Assembly (NCBI GenBank): GCA_900546785.1
Contig: URED01000045.1
Span: forward strand, 1 to 14,496
DNA from: an uncultured Oscillospiraceae bacterium
Lineage (GTDB): Bacteria > Bacillota > Clostridia > Oscillospirales > Acutalibacteraceae
Direction of reading: 5' to 3'
DNA length: 14,496 bases
Positions 343 through 14,440 of this stretch are shown in pieces; within the stretch, counting starts at the first letter, position 1; each line of letters starts with the position of its first letter. A program made the translations under genes and the position numbers. The notes beneath the pieces are model-generated. The model saw only the letters and a list, made by a program, of their open reading frames with translations. It had not been told where the DNA came from and ran no database searches.

Positions 343-350
343 AATTTGGA

Positions 351-357
351 AAGGAGG
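351..357 (+). promoter_or_regulatory. Ribosome binding site that fixes the small terminase start
   Basis: AAGGAGG lies 6 nt before ATG 364. The longer open frame would begin with TTG at 346, but that codon and the next ones would be the Shine-Dalgarno itself. ATG 364 is therefore the supported start. Confidence 0.88.
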
Positions 358-363
358 GCGGAG

Positions 364-753
364 ATGTTAAGAGGAAAACAAAAGCAGTGCCTTGAACTGA
401 TGCTTTCCGGCGAATTTACACAGAAACAGATAGCCGAAAAGATAGGCGTCACGGAGCAGACAATAACGAATTGGAAAAAGAAAGAAGAATTCTGCAAAGA
501 GTACAATTCCGCCCTGAAAAGGAAAATCAACCTGCACGCAGCGGCAGCATTCAAAGCGGAAGCTGATTTGCTAAAGAGGGCAGATAGTGACGCGGTGAAA
601 CTGAATGCTGCAAAAGATATACTCGATCGTGCCGGATTCAAACCGCGAGATGAAGTATCGCTCATCCAAAGCGCCGATGAAAGCTTAAAAGAAATGACCG
701 AATACCTTAACGGGCGGATCAAAAATGACAACCAAACAAAAACAAATACTTGA
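364..753 (+). CDS. terS: Terminase small subunit (HTH, phBC6A51-like)
   Basis: A 129-residue protein predicted to bind the phage packaging site and hand DNA to the large terminase. Residues about 18-40 form a helix-turn-helix (FTQKQIAEKIGVTEQTITNW), the usual DNA-binding module of this family. A basic and alanine-rich helical region follows (about 45-90), which would be the oligomerisation part. The start is ATG 364, set by AAGGAGG 6 nt upstream. The gene stops inside the large terminase gene, overlapping it by 29 nt in another frame, so the two are translationally linked. Position between the HTH regulator and the large terminase supports the call. Length and HTH match small terminases of Bacillota phages. 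Confidence 0.85.
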   Translation: MLRGKQKQCLELMLSGEFTQKQIAEKIGVTEQTITNWKKKEEFCKEYNSALKRKINLHAAAAFKAEADLLKRADSDAVKLNAAKDILDRAGFKPRDEVSLIQSADESLKEMTEYLNGRIKNDNQTKTNT

Positions 754-1999
754 CCTGCTTTATGACAATCCCGTTCTTATAGGCCATTGGGTGGGCTTTA
801 AAGACCTTACTACTCTGCATAACGAGTGGTTGAGGTCTTTTCTTTATTCAAAAGACAGTCAGACGAAGCAGGCTCACAGAGGTTCGTACAAAACAACGGA
901 CGTTTCTTTATTTATGGCGCTGCACATCTTAGTAGCGCCGTACAAGAACGTGCTGTTTTTCCGTAAAACAGATAATGATGTTATCGAGGTCATTAAACAG
1001 GTTAAACAGATCTTTGCAACAGGCTGTGTGCGTGAAATTACACATGAGCTTTACGGTATAGATCTTGAAATCGTGAAAGATAACGCTTCTGAGATCGATA
1101 CAAATCTTGCAACAGGCGTGCGCGGCGCGTCTCAAATCGTGGGAATGGGAACCACGGGAAGCGTGACGGGCAAACACGCTGACATTGTGGTTACAGATGA
1201 TATTGTCAATTTAAAAGATCGCATAAGCCGTGCCGAGCGCGAGCGCATTAAGATCTTTTACCAAGAATTGCAAAACATTTGCAATCGCGGCGGTCGCTTT
1301 ATCAACCTCGGCACACCCTGGCATAAGGACGATGCGTTCACGCTTATGCCGAATATCGAAAAGTACGATTGCTACTCAACCGGGCTTATAACGCCGGAAA
1401 AGCTTAAAGAACTGCGCAGCAGCATGAGCCCCAGTCTTTTTGCCGCCAACTATGAATTGAAACATATAGCAGATCAGAACGCTATGTTTACCGAACCTAA
1501 GTTTACGGATAAGGTTGAACTGCTATATGACGGTATTTCGCACATTGACGCTGCATACGGCGGCGAGGATTACACCGCATATACTGCGTTCAAGAAGCAG
1601 GCGGACGGAACGATCATCGGCTTTGGAAAGATCTGGCAAAAGCACGTGGATGACTGCTTAAACGAAATCGCAGCATATCAGAAAAACTATAGGCTCGGCA
1701 CGATCCACTGTGAGCGCAATGCGGATAAAGGCTATCTTGCTAAGGAGCTTCGCTCAAACGGCTTGCCCTGCGATTCCTATGCAGAGAAAATGAATAAGTT
1801 TATCAAGATCTCAACGTATTTAAAGGCGAATTGGAACAGAATTTACTGGATCAACGATACAGATCCGGAATACCTTGCACAGATTCTTGATTACACGGAG
1901 CAGGCGGCACACGATGACGCGCCGGACAGTGCTGCAAGCTTAATAAGGAAGATATCCGGCACGAAAAGTAAAATCAATCTATACCCGGAGGGCATATGA
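725..1999 (+). CDS. terL: Terminase large subunit (packaging ATPase and nuclease)
   Basis: A 424-residue motor protein that cuts concatemeric DNA and pumps it into the procapsid. The N-terminal ATPase has a Walker A-like HRGSYKTT at residues 51-58, a Walker B-like stretch DIVVTDD (153-159) and a coupling-type motif LGTPWH (195-200). The C-terminal RNase H-like nuclease is suggested by spaced acidic positions: D275 and D282 (HIDAAYGGED), E330 (HCERNADKG) and D397/D398/D401 (HDDAPDSAA). The Walker A is unusual, with Tyr where the Gly of GK[ST] is normally found. ATG 725 has only a weak upstream GGGCGG, so coupling to the overlapping small terminase probably drives translation. The end overlaps the portal gene as ATGA. 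Confidence 0.92.
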   Translation: MTTKQKQILDLLYDNPVLIGHWVGFKDLTTLHNEWLRSFLYSKDSQTKQAHRGSYKTTDVSLFMALHILVAPYKNVLFFRKTDNDVIEVIKQVKQIFATGCVREITHELYGIDLEIVKDNASEIDTNLATGVRGASQIVGMGTTGSVTGKHADIVVTDDIVNLKDRISRAERERIKIFYQELQNICNRGGRFINLGTPWHKDDAFTLMPNIEKYDCYSTGLITPEKLKELRSSMSPSLFAANYELKHIADQNAMFTEPKFTDKVELLYDGISHIDAAYGGEDYTAYTAFKKQADGTIIGFGKIWQKHVDDCLNEIAAYQKNYRLGTIHCERNADKGYLAKELRSNGLPCDSYAEKMNKFIKISTYLKANWNRIYWINDTDPEYLAQILDYTEQAAHDDAPDSAASLIRKISGTKSKINLYPEGI

Positions 2000-3333
2000 A
2001 CTATAACATTTTCAGAATGAATGCAGAGGAGCCGCTTACGGCTGAAAAGCTGCAAGAATTTATTAATAAAAACCGGCAGATCAGCACGGAGCGATATGAC
2101 AAGCTGATAGGCGCATACCGTAACGATTATGAGATCTACCATATGCCAAAAAAGCCGGACAACAAGCCGGATAACAGGCTTTCTGTGAATTTTGCAAAAT
2201 ATATAACCGACACCTTCAACGGCTTCTTTGTGGGCGTGCCGATCAAAGTGCAGTGCGATGATGCGCGCGTGAACAGTTACATAAACGAGCTGAACGCTTA
2301 CAATAATTTGGACGATCAAAATAGTGAACGCTCAAAAATCAGCTCTATCTACGGACGTGCCTACGAGATGTATTATGTGGATAGCAATAATAAGATCGGC
2401 ATCACGTACCTTGCGCCGAATGAAGCGTTTATGATCTATGACGACAGTGTGCTGACGCGCCCGCTGTATTTCGTCCGTTATTACAACGATAGCGATGATG
2501 TGATGCACGGTTCCGTTTCCGACAGACAGAAAGTCATGTATTTTAAAAGCCAGGGCACATTGAAGTTCGTTGAAGACCGTGAAAACGCGGGAAAGGTACA
2601 CGGCTTTAACGGCGTGCCAGCGGTTGAGACCATAGAGAACGAGGAACGCATAGGGCTTTACGAGGGCGCGCTTCCGATGATGAACGAATATAACAAAGCG
2701 CTTTCTGAAAAGGCAAACGATATAGATTATTTTGCAGACGCTTATATGAAGGTGCTCGGTCCGGATCTCAGCAAAGAGGAGCTATACGGCGTTCGGGATA
2801 ACCGCGTTATTAATATACCCGCAACAGACGGCATAAACGGTGACGCAGAATTTATGGCAAAGCCGAATGCAGATACGTCACAGGAAAATATGTTAGATCG
2901 CCTTGAACGTCAGATCTTTGTTACATGCATGGTTGCAAATATCAATGATGAGAATTTTGACGCGGCGTCAGGACAGGCTATGCGGTTCCGCCTTTCGATC
3001 ATGAGCAACAAGGCAAAAGAAAAGGAACGTAAATTTACCGCCGCTCTTTATGAACGATACAAGCTGATCTTCTCCAATCCGATAAGTAAAATGGCAAAGG
3101 ACGATTGGATGAAGCTTAATTTTGTATTTACGCAGAATTACCCCGTCAACCTCACGGATGAGGCGGATATCGCTCAGAAATTAAAGGGCATCGTCAGCAA
3201 TGAAACGCTGCTCGGTCAGCTTTCTTTTGTAGATGATGTCAAAGCAGAGCTGGAGCGGATGGAAAAGGAAACGGACGCGCTGGCTTATCAGACGGATTAT
3301 GAAACGGCAAGGACAACGATAACCGATGAGTAG
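1996..3333 (+). CDS. Portal protein (SPP1 gp6-like)
   Basis: A 445-residue portal subunit, forming the ring at one capsid vertex through which DNA is packaged and ejected. The N-terminal region, with LSVNFAKYITDTFNGFFVGV, is characteristic of the SPP1 gp6/Phage_prot_Gp6 family. Central elements include LAPNEAFMIYDDS and, later, the long helical SGQAMRFRLSIMSNKAKEKE segment typical of the stem/wing helices. GGAGG (1987-1991) precedes ATG 1996, which overlaps the large terminase stop (ATGA). The gene ends 8 nt inside the next one. It is slightly shorter than SPP1 gp6 but looks complete. Its place between the terminase and the MuF gene is the standard one. Confidence 0.9.
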   Translation: MNYNIFRMNAEEPLTAEKLQEFINKNRQISTERYDKLIGAYRNDYEIYHMPKKPDNKPDNRLSVNFAKYITDTFNGFFVGVPIKVQCDDARVNSYINELNAYNNLDDQNSERSKISSIYGRAYEMYYVDSNNKIGITYLAPNEAFMIYDDSVLTRPLYFVRYYNDSDDVMHGSVSDRQKVMYFKSQGTLKFVEDRENAGKVHGFNGVPAVETIENEERIGLYEGALPMMNEYNKALSEKANDIDYFADAYMKVLGPDLSKEELYGVRDNRVINIPATDGINGDAEFMAKPNADTSQENMLDRLERQIFVTCMVANINDENFDAASGQAMRFRLSIMSNKAKEKERKFTAALYERYKLIFSNPISKMAKDDWMKLNFVFTQNYPVNLTDEADIAQKLKGIVSNETLLGQLSFVDDVKAELERMEKETDALAYQTDYETARTTITDE

Positions 3334-4819
3334 TTATTGGCAGAAAAGGCAGGCGCAGCTCAACAGCTCACTTGAAAAGGATGAGGCGGCGCTCAAAAGA
3401 CGGCTGCTCGGTGCCTATGAAAGGGAAGCCGCAAAGCTTGATAAGGAAATAGCCGCTTATTACCAGAAATACGGCAGGGATAACGTCATAGAATATGCCC
3501 GGCTGTTTGAGCAGCTGGACGCTGAGGATATAAAGCTGCTCATTGAGCGTATGGACGATTTTGCAGAGAAATACCCGCAGTATGCCGATCTGATGCCGGT
3601 AAGGGAAAGCGTATACAGACTTAACCGGCTTGAGGGCTTAAAAGAAAGCGTATTGCTTCATCAGTACGAAATCGGCGCCATAACGAACGGGCAGCTGCAG
3701 GAACACTTGAGCGAGCTGTATTTTACAAACAGTAAAGCGGCGGCAAAAGCGGTCGGCCTTAAGGAAAACGAGAGCATCTTACGCAACTTCGTAAACACAT
3801 CATGGACAGGCAGTAAAGACTATTCGGAGCGGATATGGCAAAACGCCGAAAAGCTTGCAGAGTATCTGAACAGCGATATATCGCAGGGCTTTGCCCGTGG
3901 TGACAGTTACGAACGGCTTTCGCAGCTGGTACGCAGCAGGTTTATCAATGTTTCAAAAAACGATGCCTACAGGCTCATATACACCGAGGGCACCTATGTG
4001 ATGAACGAGGCGCAGGCTAAGGTGTTTGAAGAGGATTTTGAAGAATATGAGTATCTTACTGCCGGAGACGGCAAAGTCTGTTCTACTTGCAGTGCCCTCA
4101 GAGGGAAACGCTTTAAATTCAGCCAGAGAGAACCCGGATCGAACTTTCCGCCCATGCATCCGTGGTGCCGCTGCCATCATAACCCGGTTGTAGACGACTG
4201 GGATAAATGGATAGACGACTACGAAAAACGGCATGGGAATGCAGGAAACAGCTTGCAGGATATATTCAAAGATGATAAAATAAAGACAACGAGAATATCA
4301 CAGCAGGTTCTTGACAATCTTCGATCGCCGGATTTGGATTCCTTAACGAAAGCCCAGAATATAACACTGCGGCAAGGTATGGAAAATCTGCTTAAAAGAG
4401 TAGACGGAAAGCCTGAGGGTACAGAATGCGCATACTATTACGACATGCATGCAAAGTTCCTTAAATGGGAAATGGGAGAACCCGGAGCTCAAAGTATCGG
4501 TGTATACAATCCGTTGATTGATTACATAGCAATGCACAATCACCCCAGCGGCGGAACTTTTTCTCCCGGGGATATAGGGTCATTCGTAAAGAATGATAAT
4601 ATGAAGGTTCTTATAGTCATTGGAAATAATGGTAATCAGTATATTATGCAAAAGGTCAGCTCTTTTAATCGTAGTGAGTTTAGCAAAGATTATGCTGATT
4701 ATTTATATGAATTAAGAAATCAGAATCTTGACTTAGATGAGGCTTTAGATCTTGCAAGTGATTTCTTAGAAAAAGGAGCATCAAAGTATGGATACAAATT
4801 TAGAAAAATCATATTCTAA
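3326..4819 (+). CDS. MuF/SPP1 gp7-type minor head protein with C-terminal JAB/JAMM-like domain
   Basis: A 497-residue two-part protein. The N-terminal part (about 1-160) is charged and helical. Residues about 165-285 form the Phage_Mu_F/gp7 head morphogenesis domain, with C252-x2-C255 (GDGKVCSTC) and the conserved HPWCRCH at 278-284. This minor head component attaches near the portal and can enter the virion. A linker leads to an extra domain (about 340-450) with a JAB/JAMM-like metallopeptidase signature: E367, H404-N-H406, S413 and D416 within HNHPSGGTFSPGD. HxH-to-S spacing is six residues, one fewer than in RadC or AMSH. A helical tail follows. MuF proteins with variable C-terminal effector domains are known from temperate phages (MuF polymorphic toxins). 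I infer that this C-terminus is such an effector; peptidase activity is unproven. Translation is probably coupled to the portal gene, since no good ribosome binding site is seen. Confidence 0.87.
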   Translation: MSSYWQKRQAQLNSSLEKDEAALKRRLLGAYEREAAKLDKEIAAYYQKYGRDNVIEYARLFEQLDAEDIKLLIERMDDFAEKYPQYADLMPVRESVYRLNRLEGLKESVLLHQYEIGAITNGQLQEHLSELYFTNSKAAAKAVGLKENESILRNFVNTSWTGSKDYSERIWQNAEKLAEYLNSDISQGFARGDSYERLSQLVRSRFINVSKNDAYRLIYTEGTYVMNEAQAKVFEEDFEEYEYLTAGDGKVCSTCSALRGKRFKFSQREPGSNFPPMHPWCRCHHNPVVDDWDKWIDDYEKRHGNAGNSLQDIFKDDKIKTTRISQQVLDNLRSPDLDSLTKAQNITLRQGMENLLKRVDGKPEGTECAYYYDMHAKFLKWEMGEPGAQSIGVYNPLIDYIAMHNHPSGGTFSPGDIGSFVKNDNMKVLIVIGNNGNQYIMQKVSSFNRSEFSKDYADYLYELRNQNLDLDEALDLASDFLEKGASKYGYKFRKIIF

Positions 4820-4961
4820 ATTAAAAGATGTAAAGCCTTATGATAAAAATGAGGTTAGGCCCGATGAAATAAAAAGCTGGGCGGAATTTGACAGAGCCTT
4901 GGCTACATTTATAGTTGATTGTGTAGAATCTAACGAGGATAATGACAATGGTAAAAAATGA
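4788..4961 (+). CDS. Small acidic protein of unknown function, overlapping the MuF-JAB gene end
   Basis: A 57-residue ORF, too short for a routine ORF list, beginning MDTNLEKSYSKLKDVKPYD and ending in an acidic stretch. AAGGAG at 4773-4778 lies 9 nt before ATG 4788, a good ribosome binding site. The ORF overlaps the last 32 nt of the MuF-JAB gene in another frame and overlaps the YjcQ gene by 14 nt, so it exactly bridges two real genes. My count gives 14 acidic and 10 basic residues (net about -4). The segment IKSWAEFDRALATFIVDCVE looks like an amphipathic helix. It has no signal peptide or membrane segment. I do not recognise the family. Its position directly after a candidate effector is where an immunity or partner protein would sit, but that is inference only. 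Confidence 0.68.
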   Translation: MDTNLEKSYSKLKDVKPYDKNEVRPDEIKSWAEFDRALATFIVDCVESNEDNDNGKK

Positions 4962-5301
4962 TATAGAAGTAATCGAATACAAGATATTGGCTTATCTGTA
5001 CGAAAGCCTGAGAGCCGGTCACACCACAGCGCTTGAAGAGGTAGCGTGGAAATGCCGGCTTTTTGATATCACCCGTGAATATTGGCTTGTAATTATGAAA
5101 GACCTTATCGATAACGGCTATGTCAGCGGCTTGAAATATGTTGAGGCAAAGGATATGGAATGCGTACTTGAAACAGGCACATTCGCTATCACAGGAGCAG
5201 GAAGACAATATCTCAGGGAAAACAGTACGATGAGCAAAGTCCGCGAAACACTTGGGGAAACATTTAAAATCGTTCTCGGTGGTTTGGTCGGTATGCTGTA
5301 A
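4948..5301 (+). CDS. YjcQ-family winged-helix protein
   Basis: A 117-residue protein resembling the YjcQ family of Bacillota and their prophages. It has a compact winged-helix layout: helix (about 4-22, DIEVIEYKILAYLYESLRAG), a second helix (about 40-55, REYWLVIMKDLIDNGYV), a strand pair (about 60-80) and ITGAGRQYLRENS, as in DNA-binding wHTH proteins. An earlier ATG at 4942 adds only MT; GAGG at 4935-4938 is 3 nt from that ATG but 9 nt from ATG 4948, so 4948 is preferred. The function is unknown. YjcQ genes often occur among head genes in prophages. Here it could regulate the module or act as antitoxin or immunity to the MuF-JAB protein; neither is shown. A terminator follows. Confidence 0.8.
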   Translation: MVKNDIEVIEYKILAYLYESLRAGHTTALEEVAWKCRLFDITREYWLVIMKDLIDNGYVSGLKYVEAKDMECVLETGTFAITGAGRQYLRENSTMSKVRETLGETFKIVLGGLVGML

Positions 5302-5317
5302 TCAAAACAACAAGTTT

Positions 5318-5345
5318 AAGCACCATGCAAAGGCACGGTGCTTTT
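5318..5345 (+). terminator. Intrinsic terminator after the yjcQ gene
   Basis: AAGCACC (5318-5324) pairs perfectly with GGTGCTT (5337-5343). Inside, TGC and GCA can add three pairs across an A-C mismatch. The stem runs straight into TTTT (5342-5345), with a further T-run (5354-5359) nearby. It lies in the 69-nt gap between yjcQ and the prp gene, the clearest transcription boundary inside the late operon. Confidence 0.7.
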
Positions 5346-5370
5346 CTTATGCCTTTTTTGAGGTTTAGCA

Positions 5371-5670
5371 ATGATAAAAGTAAAAATCGAACAGGGAAAA
5401 ATAACAGCAAGCGGGCACGCAGGTTATGCGCCGAAAGGGCAGGATATTGTGTGCGCCGCTTTTTCTGTGCTTTCTCTAACGCTTGATACCGCCGTTAAAA
5501 AGCTTACCGATGATGATATTCGGATAAGCCTTGAAAGCGGCAGCATGGAGGCGCGGTGGCAGCAGATCAGCCCGCAGGGGCAGCTGCTTATAAATGCTTA
5601 TATTGAGGGTGTTAAGGCGCTTGCTGAAAACTACCCTGAATATATAACGGTGCAGGCTCGGAACACGTAA
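5371..5670 (+). CDS. prp: Ribosomal-processing cysteine protease Prp (YsxB family)
   Basis: A 99-residue protease of the Prp family. The signature GHAGYAPKGQDIVCAA gives the catalytic pair H16 and C28, with the same 12-residue separation as H22/C34 of Staphylococcus aureus Prp, and the length is typical. Cellular Prp removes the N-terminal extension of ribosomal protein L27 at a LQFFA-type motif and also trims the capsid and scaffold proteins of staphylococcal phages. Here scaffold, capsid and tail tube, all downstream, begin with LQLFA or LQFFA at residues 6-10. I infer that this phage-encoded copy processes them. GAGG at 5360-5363 is 7 nt before ATG 5371. The gene follows a terminator hairpin, so it may depend on read-through or a promoter I could not identify. 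Confidence 0.92.
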   Translation: MIKVKIEQGKITASGHAGYAPKGQDIVCAAFSVLSLTLDTAVKKLTDDDIRISLESGSMEARWQQISPQGQLLINAYIEGVKALAENYPEYITVQARNT

Positions 5671-5756
5671 AAAGCTGAGGAAAGAGCAGGCGTGGCACTC
5701 GTTAAAATCTACGGAATCTACAGTCAAGCATTGGGACTTAAAACTATGGAGGTATT

Positions 5757-6386
5757 ATGAATCGTTACACACTTCAGTTATTCGCAGAAAGTATGTCGCA
5801 ATTCGAAGCGGATAACAAGGAAAAACAATCCACGGAAGCAAAGGTTAAGGGCTCCCCTGACGGAACGCAGGAAAGTAATGAAGAAAAGGCGGGAGGAGCG
5901 CAGGGGAAGCTCTATACCGATGAAGATGTGGACAAGCTCATCAACCGCAAGTTTGCGGAATGGCAGGCAAAAAAGGATAAAGAAATCGATGAGGCAACAA
6001 AGCTTGCGGATATGAACGCTCAGCAGAGAGCAGAATATCAGCGCGATCAGCTTCAAAAGGAGCTGGACGAATATAAACGGCGCGAAACGCTTGCCGAAAT
6101 GGGCAAAACGGCGCGCTCCATGCTGGCGGAGCAGGATATAGACGTTCCCGATGAGCTTGTTGCTTCACTCGTAACAGAGGACGCGGAAACGACCGCCGCA
6201 AACGTCAAGGCGTTTGCAAAAGCCTTTACAACTGCCGTGCAGAAAGCGGTTGAAGGGAAGATCGCGCATACCGAGCCCAAGGCGGGCGGCGCTGCAACCA
6301 TGACCAAGGCGGAGATCCTTGGTATCAAAGATCCTATAGTAAGGCAAAAAGCCATTTCCGAAAATATAGGATTATTTAAAAATTAA
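5757..6386 (+). CDS. Capsid scaffold protein (DUF4355) with Prp leader
   Basis: A 209-residue internal scaffold that shapes the procapsid and is lost before or during packaging. After a short leader (MNRYTLQLFA, residues 1-10) comes a charged, disordered region (11-50). Then KLYTDEDVDKLINRKFAEW opens the DUF4355 core, a long coiled coil rich in K, E, Q and A (about 50-115). A second helical part and a basic C-terminal segment (KDPIVRQKAISENIGLFKN) would contact the capsid protein, as in other scaffolds. LQLFA at 6-10 is a Prp cleavage motif. GGAGG (5748-5752) stands 4 nt before ATG 5757. The gene lies directly before the major capsid gene, the standard place. Confidence 0.9.
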   Translation: MNRYTLQLFAESMSQFEADNKEKQSTEAKVKGSPDGTQESNEEKAGGAQGKLYTDEDVDKLINRKFAEWQAKKDKEIDEATKLADMNAQQRAEYQRDQLQKELDEYKRRETLAEMGKTARSMLAEQDIDVPDELVASLVTEDAETTAANVKAFAKAFTTAVQKAVEGKIAHTEPKAGGAATMTKAEILGIKDPIVRQKAISENIGLFKN

Positions 6387-6403
6387 CGAAAGGAAATGAG
6401 AAA

Positions 6404-7321
6404 ATGAAAAGATATGATCTTCAGTTCTTCGCAGCAGAAGAAAACCTGACTAAGGCGGCGGATATAGAACCGGCAATCTCAATTGATTTTGTCAGCCGTC
6501 TCAATTCAAACATCAAAGCGCTTCAGGAAGTGCTTGGCATCACCAATATGGTGCCGATGGCAAACGGCACGCAGATTAAAATCTATAAAATGACTGCCGA
6601 AAACACGCCGTCACAGGTGGGCGAGGGTGAACCGATCCCGCTTACAAAGATTACAAGGAAGCTTGCGAAAACGATAACGCTTACGCTCAAAAAGCACCGC
6701 AAGGCAGCTTCCGCAGAAGCAATCCAGCAGGACGGCTATGAGAACGCCGTAAACAAGACGGATAAGAAGCTGCTCGATCTCACGCAAAAGGAGATCAAAA
6801 ACGATTTCTTCTCCCTCATTGAAACCGGCACGGGAACCGCTTCCGGCACAACGCTTCAGAACACGATGTCCAACGTATGGGCAAAGCTGGTCAAGGCGTT
6901 TGAGGACGAAGAGGCGGACGGCATCTATTTCATCAGCTCCGATGACGCAGCAGATTACCTTGGCAATGCCAGCATAACAACGCAGACGGCAATGGGCCTT
7001 ACATACATTCAGAACTTTCTCGGTCTCGGTACGGTGATCGTTTCTCCGAGAGTGACTGCCGGCAAGGTTATCGGAACGGCAAAAGAAAACCTAAACGGTG
7101 CTTTTATTCCAATGACTTCGGGCGATCTGGCAAGAGCGTTCCAGCTCACGGCAGACGAGACCGGATTTGTCGGCATGAAGCATACGCCTAAAACAGACAA
7201 TGCAACGGTTGAAACGCTTATGATGAATGGCGTTACATTCTATCCCGAACGTCTTGACGGTGTTATCGTTGGCACGATCACGCCGGCAGCTTCTCTAACC
7301 GAGCCCGAAGATACGGAATAA
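6404..7321 (+). CDS. Major capsid protein (HK97-fold) with Prp leader
   Basis: A 305-residue protein expected to form the icosahedral shell. The leader MKRYDLQFFA (1-10) carries LQFFA, identical to the L27 motif cut by Prp. The next part is consistent with the N-arm and E-loop of HK97-fold capsids: NMVPMANGTQIKIYKM, then GEGEPIPLTKI and a lysine-rich beta segment (LAKTITLTLKKHRKAASAEA). An A-domain-like C-terminal half follows, with IYFISSDDAADYLG, VIVSPRVTAGKVIGTA and a final VTFYPERLDGVIVGTI. AAAGGAA (6389-6395) lies 8 nt before ATG 6404. Size and location after the scaffold gene support the role. No separate HK97-type prohead protease is seen. Confidence 0.9.
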   Translation: MKRYDLQFFAAEENLTKAADIEPAISIDFVSRLNSNIKALQEVLGITNMVPMANGTQIKIYKMTAENTPSQVGEGEPIPLTKITRKLAKTITLTLKKHRKAASAEAIQQDGYENAVNKTDKKLLDLTQKEIKNDFFSLIETGTGTASGTTLQNTMSNVWAKLVKAFEDEEADGIYFISSDDAADYLGNASITTQTAMGLTYIQNFLGLGTVIVSPRVTAGKVIGTAKENLNGAFIPMTSGDLARAFQLTADETGFVGMKHTPKTDNATVETLMMNGVTFYPERLDGVIVGTITPAASLTEPEDTE

Positions 7322-7348
7322 GCCAAGTTATGAAAGGAGGGCGGCTTT

Positions 7349-7672
7349 ATGATAATTGATACGGTCAGAGCGCTAATTAAAGAGGAAGACGGCACGATCA
7401 GTGATGAGCGGATCTTGCATTGGATCAATACGGTTGAGAGCCGCCTCAAGCTTCGGCTTGGCACAAGCATTCTGCCCGATGCCTTTGAGCATATCGCCGT
7501 TGAAGCTTGTATAGAGCTGTTTCGCCGCTATTCCTATGAGGGAATCTCTTCTGAAAACGATGGCGGGCTTTCCGTTTCATTCGTTGAGGATATCCTCAAT
7601 AAATATGCCGGCGAGATCAACGCATATAAGGCGCAGAACGGCACGGGGTTCGGAAAGGTGAAGTTTCTATGA
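7349..7672 (+). CDS. Head-tail connector protein (SPP1 gp15/HK97 gp6-like)
   Basis: A 107-residue, mainly helical adaptor that would bind beneath the portal ring. The pattern fits the small Phage_connect family: an N-terminal helix (TVRALIKEEDG), the DERILHWINTVESRLKLRLG helix and a long central helix rich in A and E (AFEHIAVEACIELFRRYSYEG), ending with a loop rich in S, E and G before a last helix. AAAGGAGG (7333-7340) is 8 nt before ATG 7349. It ends in an ATGA overlap with the next gene. First of four consecutive connector and completion genes, which is the normal order after a capsid gene. Confidence 0.83.
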   Translation: MIIDTVRALIKEEDGTISDERILHWINTVESRLKLRLGTSILPDAFEHIAVEACIELFRRYSYEGISSENDGGLSVSFVEDILNKYAGEINAYKAQNGTGFGKVKFL

Positions 7673-7971
7673 TCTGGAAATTTGTAAAGCTTTTCAAAAA
7701 CGAACAAACGGGCACGGATGAGCTCGGCAATCCTGTATCCGAGCCGAAGCAGGTAAAAGAAATCCCCGCCCGCTTTACGCCGTTCGTCCTGAAGCAGCAG
7801 GATCTTGAGGGCAGGGAGATCACCGTGCGAACAAGGAATATATTACTGCGCTGTGCCTTTTCTGGCGTGCCGGATTTCAGTTTTTTGGAGTTTGACGGCA
7901 AAACATATGAAAATACGGAAATACAGGCTTTGGGGCGTTTTACCTTGATTATTTTGGAGGGCGCAAAATGA
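7669..7971 (+). CDS. Head closure / stopper protein (SPP1 gp16-like)
   Basis: A 100-residue, beta-rich protein likely to close the connector channel and form the tail docking surface. Features: an initial strand (MIWKFVKLFK), the TDELGNPVSEP loop common in this family (a D-x-x-G-N-x-V pattern), then alternating strands (ITVRTRNILLRC, LEFDGKTYENTEIQALG) and a hydrophobic final strand (RFTLIILEG). Size and location between the gp15-like and gp10-like genes support the call. ATG 7669 overlaps the previous stop, and the end overlaps the next start as ATGA, so translation is coupled. Sequence identity alone would not be enough; gene order carries much of the assignment. Confidence 0.78.
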   Translation: MIWKFVKLFKNEQTGTDELGNPVSEPKQVKEIPARFTPFVLKQQDLEGREITVRTRNILLRCAFSGVPDFSFLEFDGKTYENTEIQALGRFTLIILEGAK

Positions 7972-8330
7972 GCGATTATGTTTTAGGCTATAACGAGCTT
8001 ATGAGGAAGCTGAAAGCGATGAACTCAATCCGTTTTGACGCCGTTGTTAAAAAGCAGGTAACGCAGATGTATCAGCGCGCCGCAAAGCACGGCGCAAGCG
8101 GCGGCGGAACGCCTTATGACACCGGTGAGCTTATGGAAAGCCGGTATCAGAAAAAAGATGAATTCGGCTACACAAAAGAATATGCGCCGCATGTGGAATA
8201 CGGCCACCGCACAAGAGGCGGGGGCGGATTCGTGCCCGGCCAGTATTACCTGCGCAGCAATGTGCAGGCACAGCAGCCGATATTTAAAGAAGACCTTGAA
8301 AAAGAGATTGAGAGGGCAATGCATGCTTAA
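7968..8330 (+). CDS. HK97 gp10-like tail completion protein
   Basis: A 120-residue protein of the HK97 gp10-like type, involved in joining the tail to the head. The tell-tale parts are TPYDTGELMESRYQ (the P-x-D-T-G-x-L core), EYAPHVEYGHRTRGGGGFVPG and YYLRSNVQ near the C-terminus. This arrangement, with a tyrosine-histidine segment followed by a glycine-rich stretch, is typical. GGAGG (7956-7960) lies 7 nt before ATG 7968. The last 8 nt overlap the start of the next gene. It appears complete and ordinary for the family. Confidence 0.86.
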   Translation: MSDYVLGYNELMRKLKAMNSIRFDAVVKKQVTQMYQRAAKHGASGGGTPYDTGELMESRYQKKDEFGYTKEYAPHVEYGHRTRGGGGFVPGQYYLRSNVQAQQPIFKEDLEKEIERAMHA

Positions 8331-8730
8331 AAAGCTATCGTTTGTGGATCTGATCGCGGCGCTTATCGCTTTGCTCAAACAGAACACGGCTGCAAAAGTC
8401 TATGATTATGTGCCGCAGGACGCACCGTCGCCGCTGATCTATATTGAGGCAGCGGGCAAGCAGGCGAATGACACGAAAGCCATGTTCTGTGAGGTTTACA
8501 GCGTTAATATTCACGCCGTGGCAGAGCCATATGAAGGCAATACCGCCATTTACAAGTTAATCAATGAAATTGAAGAAGCCCTTACGGAGGATATTACACT
8601 TCCGGAGGGCTTTGATGTTATATATCAGCTTTCGGACGGCGTAGAAGCGATATATGAAGAAGAAACGAAAGAAAAACACGCCGTGTTGCCGGTGCGCTTT
8701 AAGGTGGCATACGGCTATAAAATCAAATAA
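8323..8730 (+). CDS. Tail terminator-like protein (SPP1 gp17 position)
   Basis: A 135-residue protein in the place of the tail-to-head joining or tail terminator gene, just before the tail tube. The frame is open back to 8116, but that part lies inside the gp10-like gene. ATG 8323 is the supported start, with GAGAGGG (8310-8316) 6 nt upstream and an 8-nt overlap. The sequence has an N-terminal helix (FVDLIAALIALLKQ), then VYDYVPQDAPSPLIYIE, a proline-containing turn and strand usual in tail terminators. Strands such as YSVNIHAVAEPY, the helix AIYKLINEIEEAL, and a last strand (LPVRFKVAYGYKIK) follow. The role is inferred from fold-like pattern and gene order. Confidence 0.74.
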   Translation: MLKKLSFVDLIAALIALLKQNTAAKVYDYVPQDAPSPLIYIEAAGKQANDTKAMFCEVYSVNIHAVAEPYEGNTAIYKLINEIEEALTEDITLPEGFDVIYQLSDGVEAIYEEETKEKHAVLPVRFKVAYGYKIK

Positions 8731-8742
8731 AGGAGATTTGAA

Positions 8743-9312
8743 ATGAAAAAGTTTAATTTACAGCTGTTCGCCGAGCCGTATGACGGCCTTGCGGCGCCGG
8801 TTGTGCAGGCGCTTGCAGGAAAGGATCTTATTCTTTCTGTTTGGGATTCCACAGGGACAACGCTCCTCGCCATAAAAGGGCAGCAGGGGCTTACCATCAA
8901 CCGCTCATCGGATTCCATTGAGATCACCTCAAAGGATACAGAGGGCGATTGGAAAGATAAGATTGCCGGAATGAAAGAGTGGAGTATCGATACGGACGGA
9001 TTATTTTACGCCAGCGATACTTCTCATACAACGCTTTCCACCTATTTTGATAACGGCGATCCGGTTTGCATTAAGGTTGTCAATAAAAAGCAAAAGAAAG
9101 GCATGTTTGCAGGCTTTTCAGTCATTACGGATTACTCTCTTGAGGCGCCGCATGATGACGCCGTAACTTTCAGTATGTCGCTTGAAGGAAAAGGCAAGCT
9201 TGTTGATTTGACGGCCGAACCGTTGGATACAGATACGATGCCGGAGGGTTATGCAACGGCTGAAACCTCTCAAAGCACGAATAGCAATGATCAATCTGGT
9301 ACGGAGGGCTGA
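8743..9312 (+). CDS. Major tail tube protein (TP901-1-like) with Prp leader
   Basis: A 189-residue protein expected to build the tail tube. The core DLILSVWDSTGTTLLAIKG, SDSIEITSKDTEGDWKDKI and EWSIDTDGLF is characteristic of the TP901-1 major tail family. The C-terminal tail (about 160-189) is acidic and rich in S, T and N, probably disordered. Notably the N-terminus is MKKFNLQLFA, with LQLFA at residues 6-10, the same motif and position as in the scaffold and capsid proteins; cleavage by Prp would leave EPYDGLAAP as the new N-terminus. AAGGAG (8730-8735) precedes ATG 8743. The gene follows the tail terminator and precedes the assembly chaperones. Confidence 0.87.
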   Translation: MKKFNLQLFAEPYDGLAAPVVQALAGKDLILSVWDSTGTTLLAIKGQQGLTINRSSDSIEITSKDTEGDWKDKIAGMKEWSIDTDGLFYASDTSHTTLSTYFDNGDPVCIKVVNKKQKKGMFAGFSVITDYSLEAPHDDAVTFSMSLEGKGKLVDLTAEPLDTDTMPEGYATAETSQSTNSNDQSGTEG

Positions 9313-9314
9313 TC

Positions 9315-9623
9315 ATGTTTGAGTACGATGGAAAAAACTTTGAGTTAAAATTTAACATAAACCGAATAGAACTCATCGAAGAACAGACGCAAATGCCTAC
9401 GCTGGTACAGATCCAGCGCACAGGCGGAATGTTTAAACTGCGCGACCTCAAGATCTTTTTCGCTTACGGGCTTAAGGAAGAGGGCGCGGATGTTTTCTAT
9501 TCCATTAAAAAAGGGTTTGAGCTCTGTGAAAAGCTTATTGAGGAAAAAGGATATCCATATGTGTCTGCTTTGGTTCTTGAAAGCTTGCAGAGGGATTGCC
9601 CTTTTTTCTTCCAAGACGCCTGA
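9315..9623 (+). CDS. Tail assembly chaperone, N-terminal frame (gpG-like)
   Basis: A 102-residue protein in the position of lambda gpG, a chaperone that coats the tape measure protein during tail assembly. It starts at ATG 9315 with GGAGG (9303-9307) 7 nt upstream. The sequence is a short beta strand (NFELKFNINRIELIEEQT) followed by helices (LRDLKIFFAYGLKEEG, KKGFELCEKLIEEKG). Near its end it reads R-D-C-P-F-F-F before TGA at 9621-9623. The CCT TTT codons at 9600-9605 form part of a -1 slippery heptamer, through which a minority of ribosomes should enter the next frame. The fused product would have 97 residues from this frame plus 154 from the next (251 in all). Confidence 0.82.
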   Translation: MFEYDGKNFELKFNINRIELIEEQTQMPTLVQIQRTGGMFKLRDLKIFFAYGLKEEGADVFYSIKKGFELCEKLIEEKGYPYVSALVLESLQRDCPFFFQDA

Positions 9624-10069
9624 TAGATTTTGAATATTTAACATATAAGCAGCCGGATGATGATTATATAGAAGAAGCGAAGCCATACCAAAAGGATATG
9701 GACTTCGCTTTTTTTGCGGCAAATTTCGGATATTCAAAATCAGAATATGAACAGCTTACGCCGCGAGAGGTCAGATTCCTCTATAAAGCTTATGAGGATA
9801 AAATCGTCTCCGAAAGTTACAGGATCTATAACGCGGTTTATACGGCTTTTTATAACGCAAACAGATCAAAGCGCAAACGTGCTTTAAAGCTGTTCAAGAA
9901 AAAGCCCGAAAAAATCAGTAAGGCTACCGCACAGGAAAACATGAACGCCGTTTTGGAATCGCAAAAGAATGACGGCGATTGGGTACGCAGACTTTATGAG
10001 GCGAATGGATACGTTATTCCAACGGAGGTGAAAAGAAGTGGCAACGCTAAGCGTAAAAATAACAGGTGA
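9596..10069 (+). CDS. Tail assembly chaperone, -1 frame extension (gpT-like part of a G-T fusion)
   Basis: This frame is open from 9596 to TGA 10067-10069 and is best read as the extension reached by -1 frameshifting at 9599-9605, not as an independent gene. Its only early start-like codon is TTG 9596, with a GAGGG far too close to serve as a ribosome binding site. After the slip, reading resumes at 9605 with F-L-P-R-R. The extension is charged, with DMDFAFFAANFGYSKSEYEQL, a lysine/arginine-rich segment (NRSKRKRALKLFKKKPEK) and a C-terminal helix. In lambda the T extension recruits the tape measure protein. It overlaps the tape measure gene by 32 nt, as expected for this module. Confidence 0.8.
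   Translation: MPFFLPRRLIDFEYLTYKQPDDDYIEEAKPYQKDMDFAFFAANFGYSKSEYEQLTPREVRFLYKAYEDKIVSESYRIYNAVYTAFYNANRSKRKRALKLFKKKPEKISKATAQENMNAVLESQKNDGDWVRRLYEANGYVIPTEVKRSGNAKRKNNR
9599..9605 (+). promoter_or_regulatory. -1 ribosomal frameshift slippery heptamer C CCT TTT
   Basis: In the gpG-like frame (codons at 9600 and 9603) the sequence C CCT TTT has the X XXY YYZ form. After a -1 slip, Pro pairs on CCC and Phe on TTT. The -1 frame stays open for a further 154 codons. GAGGG at 9590-9594 lies just upstream. I see no strong downstream hairpin. Confidence 0.8.
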
Positions 10070-12611
10070 CGCAAGTGATTTTCAAAAAGCCGTGTCGGCG
10101 GCAGAGAAAACACTAAGCAACTTTGATAAAAAAGTCGGCAGCATAGGAAAAACTGTTTCGAATATCGGCAGTAAACTATCAAAGTACATAACAACGCCGG
10201 CAATGTCAGCCACTTCCGCGCTGGTCGGCGTAACACTTGTTAAAGGCTTTGACAGGCTTAAAGGAATCGATGAGGCAAGAGCAAAGCTAAAAGGTCTTGG
10301 CCACGATGCTGAAAGCATTGAGGAAATCATGAATTCTGCGCTCACCTCGGTTAAAGGAACGGCTTACGGTCTGGGCGAAGCGGCAACAACAGCCGCAAGC
10401 GCCGTAGCCGCAGGAATTAAGCCCGGCAAGGAATTGACAAGGTATCTTTCCTTAACGGCAGATGCCGCTGCCATAGCAGGCTCTTCTATGTCCGAAATGG
10501 GCTCCATTTTCAATAAGGTACAAACCTCTCAAGTCGCATATACAGAAGAACTTGAAATGCTTGCCGATCGAGGTGTACCCATCTATGCATGGATTGCTGA
10601 AGAAGCTGGAGTGGCGCAAGGCGCTGTAAAGGAACTTGCCAGCGATGGGCAGATATCCTCGGAGCTGTTTTTGAACGCCGTTGAAAAAAATATCGGCGGC
10701 GCCGCCAAGATTATGGGCGAATCGTCTTTCACAGCAGCGGTGGCAAATATCAATGCATCGCTGTCCCGTATCGGCGCTAACTTTCTTGATGCCGGCGAGC
10801 AGGGCGGAGGCTTTTTCTCTCAGGTTAAGCCACTTTTAGCAGAGTTGAATGATGATCTTGGCACACTGGAAGATAAAGCGGCGGATCTCGGCGTCAAATT
10901 CGGTCAGGCTTTTACACAGGTTGTTAATAAGGCGAGAGAGATAAAGGCAGAGTTTGAGGCGCTGCCGCCGGCTGTTCAAAAGGCAATCGGAGCCGGCGCT
11001 GTCTTTGCTGTCGGTCTGGGGCCGTCACTGCAAGTGGTTGGTCAGAGCATGGAAACGATCAGTACCGTCAGCGGCGGCGTGGGTAAAGCGTTTACGAGCA
11101 TCAAGAGCACAGTAAGCGGCTTGCCGTCAACCTTTAAAACACTCGGTAAGGGTATAGGAAACGTTGTCGGAGATTTAAAAAATCTCGGCAGTGGGCTTTT
11201 ACAGCCTTTTACCTCTCTTGCAAAAGCGCCGCTGTTTGAGCCGGTAACGAGCAAAATCACTTCATTCTTTTCCGGTTTAAAAAGTTTTCCAGGCAATTTG
11301 AAAAGTGCTATCATAACGCCAATATCGAATGGATTTAATACGCTTATAGGCAATATTGGTATGAAATTTCCGGCTCTTGCCGGAATAATAGGAGCTTTTG
11401 AAACAAACACAAAGGGAATGTTTGGGAAAATAGGCGGCAGCCTTTCTTCGTTACTTGGAAAAGTAGGGTCTTTTGCTTCCACATTCGGTCCAACTTTCGC
11501 AAAAGGAATGAGTATAGCGGCAGGTGTAAGCATCCTTGTGGCGGGGCTGGGCTTTTTAAGGCAAAATTTTGACACACAAATAAATGATCTTTTGGCGCAG
11601 GCAACGGAAAAAGGTCCGCAGCTTATAACGAATTTTTGTAATGGCATTGTCAGTGCAATTCCGAATCTTTTGACGCAGGGCACCACCCTGATCAGGCAGC
11701 TGCTCGAGACCATAACAGCGCTTTTACCGTCCTTTATTACAGGCGGTATGGAGATTATTTGTGCCCTTGTAAACGGGCTTGCGCTCAACTTGCCTCAGCT
11801 GATCCCCGCTGCTCTGGATATGATTATAACCCTCGTAACAGGTTTGCTTGATAATTTACCACAGCTCATTGATTCAGGTTTGCAGCTCCTTGTAGGAATC
11901 GTTGAGGGTATTGTAAATTCCTTGCCATTACTTGTGGCATCTATACCTGAAATCATCTCAAGCATCGTTATTACGATCGGGCAGAATTTACCGACTATCC
12001 TTCAAACAGGTATTGAGCTGCTGATTATGCTTATCAACGGTATTTTACAGGCAATACCGGATCTTATAGCTGCCCTGCCGGAGGTAATCAGCACAATTCA
12101 AGATGCGTTTGCCGATACCGATTGGCTTCAGATAGGCAAAGACCTGCTTAACAGCATCATTGATGGTATTAAATCCGTTCTGAGCAATCTCTGGAGTACG
12201 ATCAAGGATATTGCAAACGGAATCGCAGAAATGCTTGGTTTTAACGTTTCCGGGAAAGCGGAAACTTCCGGAAGCTCTGTGCCGCATAACGCCGGAGGCA
12301 CAAACAACTTTGAGGGCGGTTTAACCTATGTCAATGAAGGCGGCAGAGGCGAGTTAATCAGCTTACCGAGCGGCGCTCAGATCATACCACACGATATTTC
12401 GGTTGAATACGCCAAAGAGGTAGCAAGATCGAATTCGGTAAACGGCTCTCTTGATCTAAGCGACCTCGGCGATTACATCGTTGCCGCTGTTGTTGACACG
12501 TCAAGGATGTATGCGAAGGAAATCGGCAAAGGCATATCCAAGATGCGCATGACGGTCAATAACCGAGAGGCAGGCAGATTTATATCAGGTCTCGGATTTT
12601 CAAGGGGGTAA
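10038..12611 (+). CDS. Tail tape measure protein
   Basis: An 857-residue tape measure protein that sets tail length and passes out ahead of the DNA. GTG 10038 is chosen because GGAGG (10024-10028) is 9 nt upstream and the product starts at MATLSVKITGD, the usual tape measure N-terminus. Helical, coiled-coil-prone segments (about 10-60 and 90-320) include the GLGEAATTAASAVAAGI region typical of the family. Hydrophobic stretches lie at about 315-332 and 491-509. Residues about 522-690 hold a run of degenerate hydrophobic repeats (NLPQLI-type units). The end (about 745-790), NAGGTNNFEGGLTYVNEGG then IIPHD, is common to Bacillota phages. At roughly 0.15 nm per residue this suggests a tail of about 125-130 nm (estimate). 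No lysozyme or peptidase motif was recognised. Confidence 0.92.
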   Translation: MATLSVKITGDASDFQKAVSAAEKTLSNFDKKVGSIGKTVSNIGSKLSKYITTPAMSATSALVGVTLVKGFDRLKGIDEARAKLKGLGHDAESIEEIMNSALTSVKGTAYGLGEAATTAASAVAAGIKPGKELTRYLSLTADAAAIAGSSMSEMGSIFNKVQTSQVAYTEELEMLADRGVPIYAWIAEEAGVAQGAVKELASDGQISSELFLNAVEKNIGGAAKIMGESSFTAAVANINASLSRIGANFLDAGEQGGGFFSQVKPLLAELNDDLGTLEDKAADLGVKFGQAFTQVVNKAREIKAEFEALPPAVQKAIGAGAVFAVGLGPSLQVVGQSMETISTVSGGVGKAFTSIKSTVSGLPSTFKTLGKGIGNVVGDLKNLGSGLLQPFTSLAKAPLFEPVTSKITSFFSGLKSFPGNLKSAIITPISNGFNTLIGNIGMKFPALAGIIGAFETNTKGMFGKIGGSLSSLLGKVGSFASTFGPTFAKGMSIAAGVSILVAGLGFLRQNFDTQINDLLAQATEKGPQLITNFCNGIVSAIPNLLTQGTTLIRQLLETITALLPSFITGGMEIICALVNGLALNLPQLIPAALDMIITLVTGLLDNLPQLIDSGLQLLVGIVEGIVNSLPLLVASIPEIISSIVITIGQNLPTILQTGIELLIMLINGILQAIPDLIAALPEVISTIQDAFADTDWLQIGKDLLNSIIDGIKSVLSNLWSTIKDIANGIAEMLGFNVSGKAETSGSSVPHNAGGTNNFEGGLTYVNEGGRGELISLPSGAQIIPHDISVEYAKEVARSNSVNGSLDLSDLGDYIVAAVVDTSRMYAKEIGKGISKMRMTVNNREAGRFISGLGFSRG

Positions 12612-12620
12612 GGATTAACA

Positions 12621-13472
12621 ATGAAATTCAGATATGTCAACAGTCGGGGAGAAATCCTTGACTTTTCGGAGTTTCCTTACCTTTTCCAGAGCGGGGATCT
12701 GGTCAAGTACGCTTGGAGTTATGATTCCGCGAACAACCGCATAACGAACGTGCGCCGTGAAGCGGGAGAAAAGCCCTTTAAAGTGGGTCTGATTCCCGAT
12801 TGGTCTTTGCCTTACGCGGAAAAAAGAGCGGCGTTAAAGGAAGCGGCAAACAGGCTTTACAATGTTATAGAATATGACGTTGTGAATAAAACAGACGGCA
12901 GGATAGAAACCGATACAGGCTCCTACCTGCCGTGCCGCATCTTTGCTTCGGAAAAAAGCGATTGGGAGAACCCCACGCCCTATATGTTCAATGACCTAAC
13001 AGCCGTCAGTGGTAAAAACGCATGGATTACAGAGCAGGATTTTTCTTTTTATAAATCAGCATCGTTCAAAGACGCAGCCGAAAGCTTCCTTGATTACGCA
13101 TATGATTATGCCTATGATTATACCTCGCAGCAGATAGGCCAGGCTTTACTGAATATTGACCATATAGATACGTCTGATTTTAAAATGACCATATTCGGCC
13201 CGTGCAGCTCGCCCCGCATTTTAATAGCGGGGCATCCGTATCAGGTGTTTACTTCGCTTTCACAGGGAGATTATTTAATCGTTGATTCCCGTGACCATAC
13301 CGTTATAAAACATCTTTCAAACGGAACGCAGCAGGACATGTATGATCTTCGCGGCAAAACAAACACCGTGTTTGAAAAGATCCCGCCGGGCAGTAATGCG
13401 GTCAGCTGGGACGGCTCATTCGGATTTGATTTAACTGTTTTTCTTGAAAGGAGCGAGCCGCTATGGAGCTAA
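12621..13472 (+). CDS. Distal tail protein (Dit-like)
   Basis: A 283-residue protein in the slot of the distal tail protein, which caps the tube and carries the tail-tip hub. The start MKFRYVNSRGEILDFSEFPY and the following YAWSYDSANNRITNVRREAGEK match the beta-rich N-terminal domain of Bacillota distal tail proteins. A middle segment, DGRIETDTGSYLPCRIFAS, leads to a C-terminal half with galectin-like beta pattern (FKMTIFGPCSSPRILIAGHPYQV) and the late SNAVSWDGSFGFDLTVFLERS. AAGGA (12610-12614) lies 6 nt before ATG 12621. A short DYAYDYAYDY repeat (about 13084-13113) sits in the linker. The gene overlaps the next one by 10 nt. Family placement is moderately sure; gene order supports it strongly. 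Confidence 0.8.
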   Translation: MKFRYVNSRGEILDFSEFPYLFQSGDLVKYAWSYDSANNRITNVRREAGEKPFKVGLIPDWSLPYAEKRAALKEAANRLYNVIEYDVVNKTDGRIETDTGSYLPCRIFASEKSDWENPTPYMFNDLTAVSGKNAWITEQDFSFYKSASFKDAAESFLDYAYDYAYDYTSQQIGQALLNIDHIDTSDFKMTIFGPCSSPRILIAGHPYQVFTSLSQGDYLIVDSRDHTVIKHLSNGTQQDMYDLRGKTNTVFEKIPPGSNAVSWDGSFGFDLTVFLERSEPLWS

Positions 13473-14440
13473 TCCTTGCAAACGCAGACGGTAATGATAT
13501 CAAGGCGCTTGAATATTCAATGTGCGATTTTGACCTTGGCGGTGAAAATGATTTTGAAATTGAAATACCTGTTGAACAGTGGCAGCCGGAGATCGATTTC
13601 GGCTGCCTTGTTTATGAACCGTTGTCCGAATGCGGCGGCGTTATCTCCGCTATAGAAACAAGCACGGCGGAGAATGTCATCAGATTAAAGGGCTATACAT
13701 GGCGCGGCTATCTGAGCAAACGTATTATTGTTCCGCCTGCTAATTCGGATTACAAAAAAGTAAGCGGCGAGTTAAACGAGTGTATAGGTCAGATCATCAA
13801 TTCCATGTTTGACGGGCTGATCGTATCGAGTAATGAAAATACAGGCGTTGAGCTGAACGCTTTTCAGTTTGACCGATATGTTACGGTTTTGGACGGCTTA
13901 ACAAAAATGCTCAAATCCGTGAATTATAAGCTGAAATTCAGCTATATTCAAGGCGAAGCGGGCGCAGCAGGCTATACAGAGGTTTCGGCATGCCCTATAG
14001 AAGATTATTCCGAGCGCATTGAGCTCTCTCAGGACAGCAGATTGAACTTCACGATAGATTCAAACAAGGGCAGCGTCAATCATTTGATATGCCTTGGCGC
14101 CGGGGAACTTAAAGAGCGTGAGGTGCTGAATCTTTATCTCGATAGCCAGGGGAATATAGGCACTGTGCAGTCGTTTACGGGAATCAATGAAATTGCTCAA
14201 ACGTATGAGAACGCCAACACGGAAGACCTAAGAGCAGACGGTGAAAAGAAATTTCAAGAGCTGCTGCAAGGGACCTCCCTTTCCATGGACGTTGAAAGCT
14301 TAGGCATTGATGTTGAGATCGGCGATATGATCGGCGGGCGAGATTACATAACAGGCGTATCGGTCAAAAAAGCGCTGAAAAGCAAAATCATAACCTATGA
14401 GGACGGAGTAAAATCCGTTCAATATAATCTGGAGGAATAA
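13463..14440 (+). CDS. Tail hub / baseplate protein (siphovirus ReqiPepy6 Gp37-like)
   Basis: A 325-residue protein resembling the ReqiPepy6 Gp37-like family, a tail hub subunit related to the N-terminal part of tail-associated Tal/gp27 proteins. The opening MELILANADGNDIKALEYS, the DFDLGGENDFEIEIP strand pair and GGVISAIET are typical. A middle domain has YTWRGYLSKRIIVPP and the helix FDRYVTVLDGLTKMLKSV. The C-terminal part has NHLICLGAGELKEREVLNLY, and it ends with GDMIGGRDYITG and VKSVQYNLEE, a pattern shared by hub proteins. No peptidase or lysozyme domain is attached, so cell-wall lysis must be carried by another protein outside the window. AAAGGAG (13447-13453) is 9 nt before ATG 13463. 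Confidence 0.86.
   Translation: MELILANADGNDIKALEYSMCDFDLGGENDFEIEIPVEQWQPEIDFGCLVYEPLSECGGVISAIETSTAENVIRLKGYTWRGYLSKRIIVPPANSDYKKVSGELNECIGQIINSMFDGLIVSSNENTGVELNAFQFDRYVTVLDGLTKMLKSVNYKLKFSYIQGEAGAAGYTEVSACPIEDYSERIELSQDSRLNFTIDSNKGSVNHLICLGAGELKEREVLNLYLDSQGNIGTVQSFTGINEIAQTYENANTEDLRADGEKKFQELLQGTSLSMDVESLGIDVEIGDMIGGRDYITGVSVKKALKSKIITYEDGVKSVQYNLEE

Follow-up and report, generated by a model that had tools for sequence, protein, structure and literature searches.

A phage-encoded Prp protease accompanied by matching leaders on scaffold, capsid and tail tube proteins

Do some phages bring along the enzyme that trims their own virion proteins? We studied a 14,496-nucleotide stretch of DNA (contig URED01000045.1 of an uncultured Oscillospiraceae bacterium, positions 1 to 14,496; hereafter the window) in which a gene for a Prp-family cysteine protease (prp) is followed by genes for a head scaffolding protein, a major capsid protein and a tail tube protein, each beginning with a short N-terminal leader of the same type (Table 1). 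On the sequence evidence assembled below, we think it likely, with a probability of roughly 0.83, that the phage-encoded Prp trims its own scaffold, capsid and tail tube. The association of prp with three leadered proteins recurs in many related phages and is neither a product of chance nor private to the window. We infer that the protease would be made along with the late structural proteins, cut the bond after F9 in all three leaders and leave mature proteins that begin at A10; one protease would then mature head and tail, the host Prp would not be needed, and the leader may, until it is removed, delay or steer assembly.

What marks the enzyme as a Prp? Its PF04327 score is 71.5 bits (cut-off 27), and it matches phrog_4478, a "peptidase" family. 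An earlier reading of this DNA from its letters and open reading frames (ORFs) (the sequence-only reading) had named H16 and C28 as its catalytic residues. Both are present, together with D25, and in an alignment to 4peo/7kld these three residues fall on H22, D31 and C34 of Staphylococcus aureus Prp, with spacings of 9 and 12 in both proteins; in that enzyme they form a catalytic Cys-His pair with a loop Asp (PMC9405229; this paper, PMC5744158 and PMC10846135 are cited from excerpts throughout). The AlphaFold2 model of the window Prp (predicted local distance difference test score, pLDDT, 89.7) is predicted to have the Prp fold: its best PDB matches are 2g0j, 7kld and 7jvs (query template modelling score, TM-score, 0.77-0.86), and the 14 chains matched at E <= 0.001 come from seven entries (2g0i, 2g0j, 7kld, 7jvs, 2idl, 1s12 and 4peo), each of which the Prp profile recognises by sequence as well. 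In a poorly resolved Prp tree, phage and host Prps are mostly separate (5 label changes vs 24.7 in shuffles). A single clade of host Prps is neither shown nor rejected (p value of the approximately unbiased test, p-AU, 0.564; 32 host rows of 58), and with so few alignment columns we claim no origin for Prp.

The motif LQ[LF]FA occupies residues 6-10 in scaffold, capsid and tail tube alike, exactly as had been read from the ORFs, and prp indeed lies just upstream, ahead of all three genes. The N-termini are MNRYTLQLFAES (scaffold), MKRYDLQFFAAE (capsid) and MKKFNLQLFAEP (tail tube); their predicted cut sites are placed by analogy with those of the staphylococcal phage 80alpha (PMC5744158) and with other phage leaders.

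Could three such leaders in one operon be a coincidence? We gathered 248 loci: 14 through the window Prp in viral contigs, 80 through a Prp alignment in genomes (the best 80 of 552 relatives), 80 through a tail-tube alignment, and 74 new ones through the Prp alignment in viral contigs (from the best 80 of 266). Together with the window, 212/249 were kept and 37/249 dropped as duplicates. The strict pattern was defined as [LIM]QxF[AS] in residues 3-23 from a start with a Shine-Dalgarno-like site. It occurs in 272/4173 ORFs on the plus strand vs 1/1858 on the minus strand (the L27 genes of host-type loci, in which L27 adjoins prp, are included). Among 1240 plus-strand ORFs of at least 150 residues in non-host loci, 201 carry it in the N-terminal window, and 11, 9, 12 and 3 carry it when that window is shifted by 30, 60, 90 and 120 residues. 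False positives include tape-measure-like stretches (L224, L365; loci are numbered L, host genomes G) and an ORF of L017 at 16381, as judged by eye. At a chance rate of 0.2-1% per ORF, three motifs in one 4-kilobase (kb) module are therefore far beyond chance.

How often do prp and leaders occur together? The kept loci include 161 with prp, 58 of them host-type and 103 phage-type (no L27 after prp), a class that may include a few host genes. In the 57 phage-type loci with at least 6 kb downstream, the number of strict-motif proteins within 6 kb of prp was four in 3 loci, three in 22, two in 11, one in 10 and zero in 11. The sequence-only reading had staked itself on prp phages bearing the motif. 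The strict motif is absent from those 11 loci; by eye, seven of the 11 have a variant leader on at least two proteins (L110, L120, L127, L131, L135, L137 and L229). Three more (L035, L077 and L245) have no leader by eye, and no head module was recognised in the ORFs read; the last, L043, is taken up below. In all, 19/24 prp loci without the strict motif were read by eye, and two others without any leader were L199 and L244. Rare variants can be common to two or three proteins of one phage, as with KQMF, KQMF and KQVF in L127, LLQGF, LLQAF and LLQAF in L131, or AAFVF, AAFIF and RTFIF in L137; among shorter loci, L095 has NLQLH on three proteins, L219 has LQMY, LQMY and LQIY, and L111 has LQLFN, LQYFT and LQIFG.

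Several observations adjoin this survey. A Mu F-type minor head protein (L210:8175-9689, 505 residues, phrog_115) carries the leader ...MKLNLQFFA/SKSS (the slash marks the predicted cut) and is a possible fourth Prp substrate; so may be a 1091-residue protein about 4644 bases past prp in L135 (...IIYLPQMFA/ADY), probably the tape measure to judge from its length and position. A Glu right after the catalytic Cys accompanies a Lys at P4 in 10/12 leaders of L110, L120, L127 and L135, where other loci usually have Ala or Ser after the Cys and Leu at P4. We treat this putative pairing as a hint, because three of the four loci have related capsids and L014, with Glu and without Lys, breaks the pattern.

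Does the tail tube leader go together with prp? Where prp is in the locus, 14/25 tail tubes have the strict motif and another nine have variants by eye, giving 23/25 with a leader; where no prp was found in at least 6.5 kb upstream, 0/25 have one. The co-occurrence that the sequence-only reading had proposed to look for in related phages is thus there. Fisher's exact test gives 9.5e-6 for the strict motif and 5.6e-12 for any leader, both too small given the relatedness of the loci, and the tail-tube scan alone shows the same split (15/16 vs 0/25). From this comparison 26 prp-less loci with less than 6.5 kb upstream were excluded; four of them had the strict motif, and two more (L143 and L146) have an FLIF leader with no prp seen. 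In a protein search, a looser pattern is found in the first 30 residues of 96 of the 120 closest tail-tube homologues. This association bears on one alternative, namely that a host Prp trims the phage proteins, as it does for 80alpha, while the phage copy is spare or has another target. Phage 80alpha, which has leaders but encodes no such protease (PMC5744158, PMC9405229), is the precedent for it; against it, none of the 25 tail tubes without prp in the locus is leadered.

If one protease reads all the leaders of a phage, those leaders should resemble one another more than leaders drawn from different phages. We compared the N-terminal 32 residues in 37 phages whose capsids are less than 70% identical and permuted partners 2000 times. 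Scaffold and capsid leaders of the same phage score 30.49 vs 22.73 (standard deviation 0.87) when permuted (n=37), scaffold and tube 29.92 vs 23.95 (n=25), and capsid and tube 28.48 vs 22.83 (n=25); in each comparison 0/2000 permutations were as high. Residues 41-72 of the same proteins gave no signal, with 579 and 428 of 2000 permutations as high. Rows without a leader on the picked head proteins were kept (L019, L223 and the L228 capsid), and a loose motif pattern served to pick some tail tubes that had no profile match, a choice that affects true and permuted pairs equally. When the leaders of scaffold and capsid are compared at third codon positions, 2-9/15 sites agree in 20/21 phages and 12/15 in L015 (no null was computed). 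Recent DNA copying looks an unlikely cause of the likeness, and the disagreement suggests that it is held by selection on the protein. Rare leaders unlike that of L27, common to the proteins of one phage, again fit poorly with trimming by the host Prp.

What do the hosts themselves encode? L27 was found in 17 of 18 genomes with a phage-type prp, picked from the phage-type genome loci. It is leadered in 13/17, each with a Prp match adjoining L27 (that is, rpmA) and at least one further Prp, an arrangement that would allow the host enzyme to do the trimming. It is leaderless in 4/17 (G005, G010, G013 and G014), and in these every Prp over the cut-off is of phage type; G014 has two, G013 also has a match below the cut-off, and G010 is a "Bacteroidales" metagenome-assembled genome whose contig may be misbinned. 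An E. coli control genome gave no PF04327 match. The Gallibacter genome G013 holds a prophage (L038) that has prp along with a leadered scaffold, capsid and tail tube. Across the 31 genomes of the genus to which G014 (Faecalibacterium prausnitzii) belongs, L27 starts MAHKKG, without a leader, in 24/24 readable of 27 found, and 0/27 have a Prp match on their contig at a distance of up to 200 kb. The genus was considered as one without Prp, which was ruled out: Prp is found in 30/31 genomes, mostly in fusions, and what holds is a leaderless L27 with no Prp near rpmA. Hosts with leaderless L27 thus carry phage prp and leaders, so the phage system is independent of a long L27. With phage-type Prp and capsid leaders persisting in Faecalibacterium, we regard trimming by the host Prp as unlikely and a self-contained maturation circuit that would include the tail tube, as the sequence-only reading proposed, as the better supported. 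Its further suggestion that the phage Prp could act on host L27 is supported as no more than a possibility, and such action is not the general function: besides the four leaderless hosts and the 13 with their own Prp adjoining rpmA, several phages carry leaders unlike that of L27.

A natural gene fusion agrees with such a circuit. Three loci, the Faecalibacterium prausnitzii prophage L046 (= L005), L010 and L011, have a Prp frame that continues into a presumed scaffold, with LQLFA at the join in L046 and L010 and LQLFG in L011. LQLFA stands at the join in 120/120 of the homologues listed, out of 3471 (248-787 residues, E <= 1e-3). A fusion frame is present in 25/31 genomes of the genus (LQ[LM]F[AG] at the join; L323 is short and odd), a shorter Prp frame in 5/31 and none in 1/31. 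In all five fusion regions examined, a leadered capsid adjoins the fusion. In L353 the part after the join matches phrog_13908, a family of unknown function; we call this part scaffold because it is placed between portal and capsid. L046 has an ATG with a possible ribosome site ahead of the join motif, and therefore a separate scaffold may also be made. These fusions weigh on a second alternative, in which the main target of the phage Prp is L27 or another protein of the host, so that ribosomes are taken over or restored. The window leaders do fit the L27 type (NLQLFA/NLQFFA), but phage-type prp is kept in hosts with leaderless L27, sits in the head module, is fused to the presumed scaffold and accompanies leader variants unlike L27's, and we consider such a role extremely improbable.

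Three Faecalibacterium fusions (L352, L353 and L354, in G020, G032 and G048) belong to a compact head-gene cluster of terminase, portal, Prp::presumed scaffold and leadered capsid, followed by a protein of 627-633 residues (in L353 an internal virion protein, phrog_511) and then by another protein; in all three clusters the same two host genes come next. A PHROG scan of L353, the sole cluster scanned, matched no tail gene. The cluster capsid is found in 30/31 genomes and the flanking host gene in 30/31, and the two lie within 9 kb of each other in 13. The cluster has the look of a phage head element without a tail that has been retained for a long time and is perhaps domesticated.

Are the leaders cut at all? 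A third alternative holds that they are assembly or chaperone tags that stay uncut in virions, and that Prp binds without cutting. In 80alpha the pre-cleaved scaffold is not viable and the uncleavable one is (PMC5744158), so the leader sequence has a role of its own; with the leader required and its cleavage not, it may be an assembly or timing tag. Against a purely binding Prp, the catalytic His and Cys are conserved in 39/39 Prps (an alignment of 37 phage and two host Prps; the Asp in 36/39), and Prp cleavage of such sites is reported for L27 and 80alpha (PMC9405229, PMC5744158). The tail tubes point the same way. Tail tubes have a conserved [YF]C anchor, and the residue after LQxF stands six residues ahead of it in 64/83 leadered ones (protein search); leaderless tail tubes start 6-9 residues before this anchor in 24/32 (loci), the 32 including L137, L143 and L146, whose FxF leader the pattern missed; one leaderless N-terminus (P0070) is MAYDNNAYCDF. 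Leaderless homologues therefore begin about where cleavage would leave leadered ones. We rate uncut tags as very unlikely and continue with trimming by the phage Prp.

The same arrangement is found in named phages, of which we examined 9 of 20 records. Eight carry prp (Lj965, Fontainebleau, DO134P1, BL3, phiFL3A, PLgT-1, Krappator27 and TMW 1.1447 P1), annotated as peptidase in six and detected by tblastn only in DO134P1 and TMW 1.1447 P1. Leaders are found on 8/8 scaffolds, 8/8 capsids and 7/8 tail tubes, variants such as LQLFD, LQVFT and LQLLA counted and with the Fontainebleau tail tube and the DO134P1 scaffold and capsid named by position. The unannotated MT835606 has three leadered ORFs. 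prp lies between the portal and minor head genes in six Bacilli phages and before the scaffold gene in the other two.

Several points weigh against trimming by the phage Prp. The sampled loci lean towards relatives of the window Prp and, because they share descent, the tests overstate how independent they are; of the 25 tail-tube loci with prp, eight come from the Prp scans and one is the window itself. The tail tubes of L026, L132 and PLgT-1 lack a leader despite prp, L043 has one on the capsid only, L019 on a tail protein only, and the protein picked as capsid in L228 has none. Uncleavable 80alpha capsid and scaffold are viable (PMC5744158), and cleavage may therefore be non-essential. The window's host may also own a Prp.

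The window region looks like a siphovirus late operon, because genes for terminase, portal, minor head protein, connectors and tail terminator flank prp and the leadered genes. Family scans against Pfam and PHROG give a likely terminase large subunit (below the Pfam cut-off), an SPP1-type portal, a Mu F-type minor head protein, connectors and a tail terminator. The capsid has no Pfam match at 0.01, and scanning viral contigs with it found no relative; among 394 genomes of G014's order there are two relatives of the window tail tube, 65% and 61% identical. A YjcQ-family gene (PF09639; 4942-5301) sits between the minor head gene and prp. The Mu F protein (3326-4819), for which Phage_Mu_F was the sole Pfam family above the cut-off, has HNHPSG...SPGD in its C-terminal part, read by eye, which we take to resemble a JAB/RadC-type metal-binding motif.

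Table 1. Protease, candidate substrates and predicted leaders in the window (slashes mark predicted cuts)
Feature	Coordinates	Strand	Basis
prp, phage-encoded Prp-family cysteine protease, 99 aa	5371..5670	+	PF04327, phrog_4478, catalytic-residue alignment, predicted model
Head scaffolding protein, 209 aa	5757..6386	+	DUF4355 / phrog_172
Scaffold leader MNRYTLQLF/A	5757..5786	+	Motif codons 5772-5786; predicted cut F9/A10
Major capsid protein, 305 aa	6404..7321	+	phrog_544
Capsid leader MKRYDLQFF/A	6404..6433	+	Motif codons 6419-6433; predicted cut
Tail tube protein, 189 aa	8743..9312	+	PF06199 / phrog_1407
Tail tube leader MKKFNLQLF/A	8743..8772	+	Motif codons 8758-8772; predicted cut

How does this compare with known systems? 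Phage lambda C/Nu3, like the Faecalibacterium fusion, combines a protease and a scaffold in a single frame that may have an internal start, although the lambda protease is unrelated to Prp; the fusion has a Prp site at the join, and in the window prp and scaffold are separate genes. In S. aureus the host Prp cuts L27 and the 80alpha scaffold and capsid (PMC9405229, PMC5744158). The 80alpha scaffold leader is required for assembly and its removal is not, and the relevance of leader cleavage is called still unclear (PMC5744158). A cleavable leader is common to L27 of Firmicutes and some phage shell proteins. The 80alpha scaffold and capsid bear leaders with the motif seen in the window, and in 80alpha these are cleaved between F and A (PMC5744158); the window scaffold and capsid, known from sequence, match the LQ(F/L/H)FA leader of this type. 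The 80alpha protease, however, is the host's, whereas the window phage encodes one and its tail tube is leadered too. The phi13 major tail protein and the phage 80 capsid also bear the Prp motif, and the excerpts of PMC5744158 describe no phage-encoded Prp, triple set or concerted change for them. The host Prp (ysxB) and long L27 resemble the window system in the PF04327 protease, the predicted fold, the Cys-His pair and a similar leader (PMC9405229); their substrate is a ribosomal protein and the gene lies between rplU and rpmA, whereas the window prp lies in a phage head operon and adjoins neither. Another "protease" treated alongside Prps (PMC10846135), that of Shewanella phage vB_SbaS_Y11, lies among replication-type genes away from the terminase and was not used. 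Phage Prps are already annotated as peptidases in phage records, and the motif on a tail protein is known from phi13 (PMC5744158). The literature searched yielded no description of a phage-encoded Prp with three leaders or of a Prp::scaffold fusion, so it is the phage-encoded triple circuit that we did not find in print.

More broadly, and as a conjecture that we think less likely than not, phage Prp and phage-specific leaders on scaffold, capsid, tail tube and at times minor head or tape measure proteins may form a widespread, co-changing system with a partly private cutting code, in which Prp was perhaps first a virion-maturation protease and L27 trimming was recruited later. Phages with their own Prp, some in hosts with leaderless L27, uncouple the maturation of virions from the assembly of ribosomes and provide test systems available in culture, and their leader variants are natural protease-substrate pairs for the study of Prp specificity. 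If the reading is true, having a single enzyme process head and tail would be a simple means of timing both assembly lines.

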